In this document: in pieces, positions 32,172 to 34,444 of the stretch
How the letters are laid out: each line of letters opens with the position of its first letter
Numbering within the stretch: position 1 is the first letter of the stretch
Source of the DNA: Clostridium sp. 12(A)
GTDB lineage: Bacteria > Bacillota > Clostridia > Lachnospirales > Lachnospiraceae
Direction: 5' to 3'
Assembly (NCBI GenBank): GCA_000526575.1
Contig: JAGI01000002.1
Coordinates: forward strand, 1,240,001 to 1,304,000
Length of the DNA: 64,000 bases
The notes under the pieces: model-generated
What the model saw: only the letters and a program-made list of their open reading frames with translations
Told to the model about the DNA's origin: nothing
Database searches by the model: none
Made by a program: the position numbers and the translations under genes

Positions 32172-32221
32172 GCTGTCTGTCTCCAATCTTTCGTCTTTTT
32201 ATCTTTTTAACACTTTACCAC

Positions 32222-32245
32222 AAAAAATTGTTTCCTGCAACAATT
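32222..32245 (-). terminator. intrinsic terminator overlapping the hflC stop
   Basis: A 7-bp stem (AATTGTT 32226-32232 with AACAATT 32239-32245) followed by six T on the minus strand. It separates hflKC from metF. Confidence 0.7.
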
Positions 32246-33116
32246 ACCGTCCCATAAAAATTTGTGCGATCGGTGAATTTCCTGGAAGAATCAGGGTATT
32301 GTTTTCGCCGGCAAGAGATGTTTTTGCTGCTTCCAGAGAACGGATAAAGGAATAAAAATCAGCTCTCTGGGGATTGCTGTAAGCCTCCGCCAGGATTCTC
32401 ATGTACTCTGCCTCTCCCTCAGCTGTAACAGATGCAGCCGTTGCCTGGGCATCGGAAATGCTGATAGCAATCTCTCTGTCTGTGGTATTTTGTATTTTCT
32501 TTGCTTCTGCCTGCCCTTCTGCGGTATAAGTAGCTGCTATTTTATCACGTTCTGATATCATTCTTTCGTACACCGCTGCTTTGTTATCTACCGGAAGATC
32601 CAGACGTTTCGTCTCAACGGCCAGTAGCTTAATGCCGTACTGGCTCATATTCTCACCCACGTTCTTCATGATCGCCTGAGAAAGCTCTTCATCTCTGCTG
32701 CTGATGACATCGTTCTGGCTCATACTGCTGATGACATTTTTTACGGAGTTATAAACTACCGTATCAATTCTTCCTTCCGCATTGGCAATGGAAGAATTTA
32801 AGGACTGGGCGAACCTTAAGGGGTCTTCAATCTTCCATAATACATAGCTGTCACTTAACATGGTCTTCTTATCCATGGTAATGACATCAGAAGCTGCCAG
32901 ATCGTAAATTAAAATCTGTCTTGGCAGCGTATCTGCTGTCTGTATCAGGGGAATCTTCATAGTAACACCAGCTGTATTTATGACCCGTTCCACACGGCCG
33001 AACTGACGTATTAATTTATATTCATTTTCATTGGTGACGACAAGGGAACCAGACAATACGATGACCGCTAAAAGAGCGAAAAATACAAGGACGGCTTTTT
33101 TTAGTTTCTGTTTCAT
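32244..33116 (-). CDS. hflC: SPFH/band-7 membrane protein HflC
   Basis: Prohibitin-like membrane protein that with HflK forms a large cage modulating the FtsH protease. An N-terminal TM (AVLVFFALLAVIVLSGSLVV) is followed by an SPFH domain (about residues 25-190: ENEYKLIRQFGRV, AGVTMKIPLIQTA, DSYVLWKIEDP) and a helical coiled-coil region (AEAKKIQNTTDREIAIS, AQATAASVTAEGEAEYMRILAEAYS split). 290 residues. It starts within the hflK stop (ATGA overlap of 4 nt) with AAGGAG upstream. It lies in a two-gene unit behind the leader at 34.1-34.4 kb. Confidence 0.92.
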   Translation of the reverse strand: MKQKLKKAVLVFFALLAVIVLSGSLVVTNENEYKLIRQFGRVERVINTAGVTMKIPLIQTADTLPRQILIYDLAASDVITMDKKTMLSDSYVLWKIEDPLRFAQSLNSSIANAEGRIDTVVYNSVKNVISSMSQNDVISSRDEELSQAIMKNVGENMSQYGIKLLAVETKRLDLPVDNKAAVYERMISERDKIAATYTAEGQAEAKKIQNTTDREIAISISDAQATAASVTAEGEAEYMRILAEAYSNPQRADFYSFIRSLEAAKTSLAGENNTLILPGNSPIAQIFMGR

Positions 33117-34090
33117 TCTGTTTTCTCCTTTTCTGGGCTGTTTCCTCCACCGGTGAAGCTATCCAAAGGAAGGATTGTGCTGGTCTTATCAGTTCCGTCT
33201 ATAATGACTTTCATATTTGGAAGTACCTTTTCCATGGTTTCATAGAACATTCGCTTTTTCGTAACTTCCGGATTCTTTTCGTATTCCATGAACATCGCAT
33301 TGAATTTTGCTACTTCTGCATTGGCTTCATTGATTCTTTTCGCTTTTGTTGATTCTGCATCCTGTAATATCTTATCGGTCTGAGCGGTTGCCTCCGGTAG
33401 CTTTTCGTTGCGGTATTTATTTGCATTGTTAATGGCAGTCTCTTTTCCCTGCTTTGCAGTTTCTACTGCCTTAAAGGCTTCCATGACCTCTTTGGTCGGC
33501 GGTTCAGAATCCTGAATGGTCACATTTACGACTGTAAGGCCTATTTCATGCCCTTCCAGCTTTTCCATGATCATCTGCTTAATCTTTGTCTGAATTTCAT
33601 TCTTTCCAGTAGTCAATACAGCATCCACATCATAGCTTCCAATCACGGTACGAATGCAGCTTTTTGTAATGCTCTGTAAGACCTTCAGGGGATCCTCTGA
33701 GCCATAGACTGCCTTCACTGGATCTGATACCTTATACTCTGTAAAAAAGTCTACGTTAACGAAATTATAATCTTTGGTGATCATCAGAGAATCCTCCTCC
33801 TTGCTTTCGTTATCGTCAGGATTATAGCCAATGGCAAATCCCTGAATGGTAGTGTTCACTTTCTTTACCTTCTGGACAAACGGCACTTTAAAATGAAGCC
33901 CCGGATCTGTCACCGCCCTTGGCCTGCCCATTGTCGTTACGACTGCCTGCTCCTGTTCCTGGATGTTGTATATGGAACCAAAACCAATCACTGGAACTGC
34001 CACCAATAAAACGGCTGCGATACCTGACTTCTTAAGGATTTTCTTTATCCTTTTCCATACCTCTCTTTTTTGAGGATCAAACGTTTCCAT
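33113..34090 (-). CDS. hflK: SPFH/band-7 membrane protein HflK
   Basis: Partner of HflC. An N-terminal TM (GIAAVLLVAVPVIGFGSIY) is followed by an SPFH domain (EQAVVTTMGRPRAVTDPGL, HFKVPFVQKVKKV, NFVNVDFFTEYKVSDP) and a coiled coil rich in Ala, Glu and Lys (EKLPEATAQTDKILQDAES region). 325 residues; it lacks the long Gly-rich N-terminus of proteobacterial HflK. AAAGGAG precedes the ATG. In proteobacteria the complex regulates FtsH; that role here is inferred from family. Its expression is likely controlled by the long structured leader directly upstream. Confidence 0.92.
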   Translation of the reverse strand: METFDPQKREVWKRIKKILKKSGIAAVLLVAVPVIGFGSIYNIQEQEQAVVTTMGRPRAVTDPGLHFKVPFVQKVKKVNTTIQGFAIGYNPDDNESKEEDSLMITKDYNFVNVDFFTEYKVSDPVKAVYGSEDPLKVLQSITKSCIRTVIGSYDVDAVLTTGKNEIQTKIKQMIMEKLEGHEIGLTVVNVTIQDSEPPTKEVMEAFKAVETAKQGKETAINNANKYRNEKLPEATAQTDKILQDAESTKAKRINEANAEVAKFNAMFMEYEKNPEVTKKRMFYETMEKVLPNMKVIIDGTDKTSTILPLDSFTGGGNSPEKEKTE

Positions 34091-34148
34091 AATGTGCTCC
34101 TTTCTTTACTTACCCTCTATGTTTATGCTCTCGTAAAGGAAACAAGAA

Positions 34149-34238
34149 AGAGTCTGACTTGTCAGACTCTGGCACTGACGCGCTGTCACTTTAGTGACAT
34201 CTTCCTCTTAAGCGTCATGTGCATCCTGCATGGAATGC
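34149..34238 (-). ncRNA. second structured element of the hflKC leader
   Basis: Minus-strand RNA with three stems: GCATTCC/GGATGC at 34238-34221; TGACGC (34217-34212 on the minus strand reads TGACGC) with GCGTCA (34181-34176), enclosing a perfect TGTCACT/AGTGACA hairpin (34199-34184); and a perfect 10-bp stem 34149-34158/34161-34170 with a 2-nt gap, followed by TTTCTTGTTT, which resembles a terminator. Some 60 nt then lead to the hflK ATG. I do not recognise a known RNA family. It may be an attenuator or an independent small RNA. Confidence 0.45.
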
Positions 34239-34280
34239 TTTTTATTATATAGGGGTGTATACCCCCCTATATAATAAAAA
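34239..34280. repeat. perfect 17-bp inverted repeat
   Basis: 34239-34255 and 34264-34280 are exact reverse complements (TTTTTATTATATAGGGG and its complement) separated by 8 nt. It directly abuts the T run of the riboswitch terminator and could be an operator, an anti-terminator element or a second hairpin. Confidence 0.85.
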
Positions 34281-34320
34281 AGACCTTTATTGACACCTTT
34301 ACGGTATCAATAAAAGTCTT
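34276..34320 (-). terminator. riboswitch expression-platform terminator
   Basis: An 18-bp stem, 34320-34303 with 34297-34280, loop of 5, continuous on the minus-strand RNA when two G-U pairs are allowed (C-A on the other strand), followed by a T/A-rich tract. Its 5' arm contains the 3' strand of the aptamer P1 stem, so the two structures are mutually exclusive. Confidence 0.85.
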
Positions 34321-34404
34321 GCACATTTCATAAGGATGCGGATAAATCACTTTACCGTTCTGACGCAATCTTATCCAGCAAATGCTGGCAGCTACTCCCT
34401 TTTA
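34311..34404 (-). promoter_or_regulatory. yybP-ykoY-like (manganese) riboswitch aptamer upstream of hflKC
   Basis: The minus-strand RNA begins UAAAAGGGAGUAGC (34404-34391) and ends GCAAGACUUUUA (34322-34311). UAAAAG pairs with CUUUUA to form P1. GGGAGUAGC and GCAAGAC are the conserved loop sequences of the yybP-ykoY family as I know it. Inside are a CCAGC/GCTGG hairpin (34388-34375) and a UGCGUCA segment (34367-34361), also family-like. About 94 nt, close to family size. Family members bind Mn2+ and usually turn expression on by preventing a terminator, which fits the overlapping terminator here. Assignment is by motif and pairing, without a covariance search. Confidence 0.72.
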
Positions 34405-34415
34405 CGATTGAAGCT

Positions 34416-34444
34416 ATTATATCAGATCCATAGCTGTGTGTCAA
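34416..34444 (-). promoter_or_regulatory. consensus promoter of the hflKC leader RNA
   Basis: TTGACA (34444-34439) and TATAAT (34421-34416) are 17 nt apart, a perfect sigma-A promoter. Transcription would start about 5-10 nt before the aptamer's first pairing base. Confidence 0.92.

Follow-up and report, generated by a model that had tools for sequence, protein, structure and literature searches.

What kind of RNA precedes the hflKC genes of Clostridium sp. 12(A), and which signal does it read? Manganese riboswitches have been described mainly on cation transporter genes, and the first-pass annotation of the 64,000-nt stretch that we analysed (the window) placed one, of the yybP-ykoY family, before hflKC. 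HflKC is a partner of the FtsH protease, and we know of no established role of hflKC in manganese biology. The reading that we favour, with a probability of about 0.72, is that the hflKC leader is a divergent yybP-ykoY variant that lacks P4 and turns hflKC on at high Mn2+. At the level of sequence, the comparisons given here establish the leader as a real element with its helices, its L1/L3 core, its mutually exclusive P1 and terminator, and its target genes. Its ligand is probably Mn2+.

All features of the locus lie on the minus strand. The promoter (34416..34444), of sigma-70 type with a TG before the -10 hexamer, is indeed a perfect TTGACA-17-TATAAT (12/12 consensus matches), and the RNA begins UAAAAGGGAGUAGC at 34404, 11 nt from the promoter and thus within the 15 nt first proposed, and ends GCAAGACUUUUA. 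The aptamer RNA of 95 nt (34310..34404) occupies positions 1-95 of our covariance model R1. It scores 96.6 bits with R1, which was built from 12 family elements with the hflKC leader itself among them, and 77.1 bits with R2, a model built from 100 Lachnospiraceae elements at other loci.

The 5' strand of the switch helix P1, UAAAAG (34399..34404), pairs with 34311-34316, as judged from sequence and covariation, and leads into the 5' side of L1, GGAGUA (34393..34398). Fold and covariation define the P2 hairpin CCAGC-AUUU-GCUGG (34375..34388; helix 3) and P3 (34330..34374; helices 5-7), which consists of P3.1 (AUAAG/CUUAU), GCG/CGC and then P3.2 (GGUAAA/UUUAUC). The putative metal site is the 7-nt L3 bulge UCAGAAC (34357..34363), closed by CG/CG and placed by L3 calls across the related elements. 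Where P4 would stand, sequence and folds of the element set give the junction GAAAUGU (34323..34329). The terminator scan places an intrinsic terminator at 34280..34320, with an 18-bp stem followed by a T run and a hairpin of -24.0 kcal/mol. Its 5' arm includes the P1 3' strand CUUUUA (34316-34311), which bears out the earlier description of a strong terminator that re-uses this strand.

Downstream lie hflK (33113..34090; PF01145, E 1.1e-30) and hflC (32244..33116; PF01145, E 3.7e-26), two SPFH/Band_7 genes that overlap by 4 nt; they are the predicted targets at this locus, and neither is a metal exporter or cation transporter. Homologues of metF (Pfam MTHFR) and metH (S-methyl_trans, pterin- and B12-binding) follow. 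The gap that separates hflC from the metF homologue (32187-32243) holds a weak, short hairpin followed by T residues, seen by eye and absent from the terminator scan, so that metF may share a transcript with hflKC or be transcribed apart from it. Upstream of hflK, the riboswitch terminator is followed by a palindrome-rich, MITE-like repeat of about 140 bp (34142-34280), of which seven more copies of at least 98 bp and 81-92 % identity occur elsewhere in the genome. The repeat is also found in [Clostridium] aerotolerans (L249); it is absent from Lacrimispora algidixylanolytica (L266), where the site looks empty.

Aptamer and terminator together fold far below shuffled sequences (z -5.56, 0/200), and the aptamer alone is not better folded than its shuffles (z -0.47, 55/200). 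Single-sequence folding thus gives the aptamer no support, and the real evidence is covariation. Across the alignment of 98 distinct elements, 92.8 % of the cells are paired, compared to 37 to 50 % in slid controls, and 516 cells show changes on both sides of a pair, compared to 156 in shuffles of the 98 distinct rows, in an alignment whose fitting to the model structure is a bias in favour of pairing. P1 and P1.2 covary, and the P2 and P3 helices are present with covariation. Eight hflK leaders taken alone are 92.4 % paired, with both-side changes at 15 pairs. For ten named hflK leaders the figures are 88.8 % and 11 pairs, with poor pairing in P3.1 (52 %), probably the result of a register shift of this helix in the alignment behind R1.

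The first-pass annotation had looked to a significant score with the Rfam model RF00080 and had taken its absence to speak against the assignment. That score is absent: RF00080 (gathering cut-off 45 bits in Rfam 15) has no match at gathering in the whole window, no match at E<=10 to the hflKC leader or to any of the 17 loci of our first DNA search, 14 of which bear an element, and no match at E<=0.001 anywhere in the Clostridium sp. 12(A) genome. We discount this result because the E. coli alx leader is also without a match at E<=1 (L271 4360-4520). The E. coli mntP leader reaches 41.6 bits, below the cut-off, and taken together these controls show that RF00080 is insensitive and that the missing match is not decisive. 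Among leaders of the phylum, the model matches 6/9 that come from outside the Lachnospiraceae (27 to 53 bits) and 0/11 from within this family; the P4-less mntP leader L021 and a P-type ATPase leader of the same genome as hflKC (L268) score 20-21 bits, far under 45. Other Rfam matches, at gathering or by lax cmscan, were rejected as look-alikes of unrelated families around terminator palindromes, among them a MIR1120 match of 31 bits against a cut-off of 86 that covers mostly the terminator hairpin.

The custom models give a different view of the family and expose a gap in Rfam: R1 has matches in 127/299 Lachnospiraceae genomes, while RF00080 finds four places at E<=0.01 in 150 such genomes and is above its cut-off in 0/150. 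R1 also scores all four of these places (27 to 39 bits), each of which precedes an MntP-like gene (L019 by Pfam, the others by likeness). Both models match L018-L021, L078 and L079, and since the same mntP leaders are found by both, we regard the two sets as probably one superfamily seen from both sides. In the phylum, R1 has matches in 33/299 genomes, including Clostridium sp. 12(A) and one other member of the Lachnospiraceae, and the weaker of them precede TerC, GDT1/UPF0016, P-type ATPase and Na+/Ca2+ exchanger genes, among others; the TerC, GDT1/UPF0016 and MntP targets were assigned by Pfam on one representative each. R1 does not find the E. coli mntP or alx leader, and R2 recognises only the P3/L3 part of the alx leader (17 bits, E 0.059).

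In the Clostridium sp. 12(A) genome R2 finds four places, namely the leaders of hflKC, of a KUP potassium transporter and of two P-type ATPases, the fourth being weak (E 0.147). The KUP leader (L103/L267, C2:3284073-3284185) is a second variant element with its own overlapping terminator. Both P-type ATPase leaders carry a CAACAU-type L3, so that two L3 types, this one and UCAGAAC, coexist in one genome.

How close is the hflKC leader to known manganese riboswitches? With the RF00080 kind, as known from L. lactis, X. oryzae and E. coli mntP and alx, it shares the L1 motif GGGAGUA..AGAC, the helices P1, P2 and P3, a 7-nt L3 that includes the adenosine of the metal site and the predicted competition between P1 and terminator, and related elements in the same genomes target cation transporters. 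It differs from the reference in having no P4, no RF00080 match and hflKC as its target. In the place of P4 and the four-way junction, sequence and alignments show 7 nt without a hairpin, which makes the hflKC element a three-way-junction variant. The mntP leader L021 is without P4 as well, and P4-bearing and P4-less forms both occur outside the Lachnospiraceae (folds read by eye), so members of the yybP-ykoY kind do not always have P4. Branch counts of the junction from MFE folds were dropped, as they were confused by extended P1.2 pairs. The mntP leader L021 and the P-type ATPase leader L268 share the three-way junction; their L3 is of the CAACAUACU type, whereas that of the hflKC leader is CG-UCANNAC-CG.

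The E. coli alx leader resembles the hflKC leader in its loop: it shares GGGGAGUAAC..GUGAGACC and the L3/P3.2 module CG-UCAUUAC-GAUGUG..CACAUC-CG. By eye it differs in that an additional long hairpin stands where P4 would be and no T-run terminator comes directly after P1, and it controls a gene annotated as a Mn2+ exporter, which the hflKC leader does not. The assignment to the yybP-ykoY kind is thus supported by the matches of the custom model to MntP, TerC and GDT1/UPF0016 leaders, the covariation, the L1/L3 core and the terminators that overlap P1; the kind first proposed has stood, with two corrections: a match to RF00080 is missing, and the element is without P4.

Two papers describe how L1 and L3 dock around Mn2+, whose ligands are phosphates and the N7 of an invariant adenosine, namely A41 in L. 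lactis and A48 in X. oryzae (PMC6754395, PMC9190785). The adenosine at 34361 in L3 of the hflKC leader is the predicted counterpart of both (PMC6754395, PMC9190785). For L. lactis, G9, U39, C40, A41, U44 and C45 are named at the metal site (PMC9190785), and we count it as a difference that L3 of the hflKC leader reads UCAGAAC where the L3 nucleotides of this list are U39, C40, A41, U44 and C45. P1 and P1.2 close the L1 motif GGGAGUAG / AGAC of the hflKC leader.

We examined 133 elements out of the best 150 R1 matches, of which 30 and 100 were taken from the R1 search and three from the first DNA search; some are near-copies, and the 17 of the best 150 that lie outside the set include the hflK leader L188. 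GGGAGUA(G/A) is present in 133/133, in a search whose finding model itself rewards L1. The L3 adenosine is kept in 131/133, after correction by eye of eight automatic L3 calls (L127, L140, L156, L161, L162, L167, L171 and L179). The two exceptions, L027 (1501-1597) and L040 (1501-1617), carry a U where the others have the adenosine that binds manganese (UCUUCUU) and stand before YccF-type operons.

In 128/133 elements the terminator hairpin includes 4 nt or more of the P1 3' strand and has U after it, compared to 5-18/133 after downstream shuffling, and P1-overlapping terminators are found in 15/15 leaders with SPFH targets. In 106/133 elements a hexamer resembling the -10 box stands no more than 35 nt from P1, compared to 44 to 58 in shuffled sequences. 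Such a geometry is that of an ON switch, as the accessible text on L. lactis describes (PMC11087558), and we infer from it the direction in the cell. Transcription would start just upstream of P1. At low Mn2+, L1 and L3 would stay undocked and P1 weak, CUUUUA would be drawn into the 18-bp terminator and transcription would stop before hflK. At high Mn2+, the L1-L3 site would be filled via the conserved L3 adenosine, P1 would be stabilised, the terminator blocked and hflK-hflC transcribed.

To classify the genes that follow the 133 elements, we used BLAST clustering and Pfam of representatives. P-type ATPases are the commonest targets (45), followed by Na+/Ca2+ exchangers (14) and OadB (9), with a few each of CNNM, NaPi, CitMHS/ArsB-type and KUP genes; ion-transporter classes account for 76/133, and 20 elements fall in no target class. 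SPFH genes are the target of 15/133, ten of HflK type, four flotillins and one other. With 108 Band_7 genes in 40 Lachnospiraceae genomes (about 2.7 per genome), and on the estimate of roughly 3000 genes per genome, chance would give roughly 0.1 of 133 SPFH targets compared to the 15 seen. A further 22/133 precede YccF and/or its companion, a protein of about 150 residues with no Pfam family, which is often then followed by YccF (L022, L024, L025, L033, L040, L041, L045 and others). Identical elements precede an EcsC gene in three genera (L097, L098 and L100, in G191, G232 and G102), and the DNA downstream is nearly identical (1499 and 1447 of 1500 positions), which suggests that this segment has recently moved.

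HflK was found in 69/200 Lachnospiraceae genomes. Taking the best HflK locus of each of 68 genomes, with four weak matches excluded, the element is upstream in 8/68 and missing in 60/68. In a ninth genome, G114, element (L004) and gene (L185) lie at the ends of different contigs, a pair that is only suggestive of a further hflK leader. On the HflK tree the element label needs 7 changes compared to a shuffled mean of 7.7, a patchy distribution that points to several gains or losses. The element is present at every one of the nine named loci whose HflK is at least 73 % identical (10/18 named loci overall). These nine records belong to Lacrimispora, Clostridium and Hungatella, with [Clostridium] aerotolerans the closest at 97 %. 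The HflK of L183 (G033) is 77 % identical to that of Clostridium sp. 12(A), yet its locus is without the element. The proposal of hflKC as the target, with conservation upstream of hflK in relatives, is thus upheld in the nine close loci. The companion proposal, in which hflKC took the place of an earlier metal gene at this locus, is unlikely because these nine loci share the arrangement and SPFH targets recur, and we dropped it.

Could the loop have been retuned? One explanation for the L3 differences in the family is a yybP-ykoY derivative of altered specificity, in which SPFH/YccF elements with a changed L3 sense another divalent ion or an envelope-stress signal. A 6-nt L3 occurs in 19/37 YccF/SPFH leaders compared to 0/76 transporter leaders (Fisher 1.7e-10, a value that still counts the miscalled L179 and ignores relatedness), and in 7-nt loops a purine at position 43 occurs in 10/12 SPFH compared to 8/66 transporter leaders (Fisher 1.8e-6, relatedness again ignored). 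The two natural A-to-U elements point the same way. A review from 2020 by Sherlock and Breaker deems it likely that some yybP variants are of altered specificity (PMC7266159), and the elements described here offer concrete candidates.

On a weakly supported RNA tree of 130 distinct rows, the 6-nt L3 needs 6 changes compared to 23 when shuffled, and this form is largely one RNA lineage. SPFH leaders are scattered on the same tree (13 changes compared to a shuffled mean of 14.5), so SPFH genes seem to have acquired the switch on several occasions, with the L3 signature recurring. For the SPFH (hflKC, flotillin) and YccF elements of the Lachnospiraceae in general, a metal loop retuned to a ligand other than Mn2+ by purine 43, a 1-nt deletion or A41U is a tentative idea that we hold doubtful. 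The hflKC leader itself, however, retains both the adenosine and the 7-nt length of L3, and UCAGAAC is also found before P-type ATPase (L032) and OadB (L126, L145) genes, so that altered specificity is an unlikely account of this leader. As its L3 is near the Mn2+ type, Mn2+ remains the best guess.

Also conceivable is a switch in the style of alx that reads Mn2+ together with alkaline pH or with Na+ stress; the hflKC, OadB, CitMHS/ArsB-type and KUP targets would then be pH or ion-stress genes. The hflKC leader has the L3/P3.2 module of alx, the alx leader responds to pH, and the targets of the family include the OadB, CitMHS/ArsB-type and KUP genes. The pH response of alx is attributed to alternative folds outside the aptamer, though, and the commonest targets here are P-type ATPases; we consider this alternative quite improbable. 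In the part available, a paper with alkalization in its title names both mntP and alx as Mn-sensing (PMC9603457). A plain terminator or attenuator that binds no ligand, or a chance look-alike, would agree with the lack of a right-kind Rfam match and with the ordinary fold of the aptamer, but the covariation already contradicts it, as do the near-invariant unpaired L1 and L3 and the many genomes matched, and we give it hardly any credence.

We return to the manganese reading of the hflKC leader and to its place in what has been published. The open-access literature gave no report, among the matches listed, of a link between a yybP-ykoY riboswitch and hflK, no paper pairing yybP-ykoY with SPFH and none on manganese riboswitch variants in Lachnospiraceae; the one paper to mention both yybP-ykoY and flotillin is that on TerC, in two versions. 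Titles and abstract starts likewise gave no work on riboswitch control of hflK. The accessible part of the 2020 review mentions diverse yybP-associated genes without naming them (PMC7266159). Two 2015 Mol Cell papers on this riboswitch list its targets, and specialists may already know of SPFH genes as such. The SPFH association is recurrent, and we found no earlier report of it in the open-access literature.

What would the cell gain? On the manganese reading, HflKC would be supplied when manganese load disturbs the maturation of secreted and membrane proteins. We count a link to FtsH in its favour, from the available part of work on B. subtilis (PMC10550928), and infer that placing hflKC and flotillin genes under manganese control would fit the FtsH picture drawn there (PMC10550928). 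The natural L3 variants of the family (7-nt with U43, 7-nt with purine 43, 6-nt, and A41U) are matched and allow a side-by-side test of the idea of altered specificity in yybP RNAs. If that idea were true of the SPFH and YccF elements, the retuned L3 would make genes for membrane scaffolds and quality control answer to a new ionic signal.
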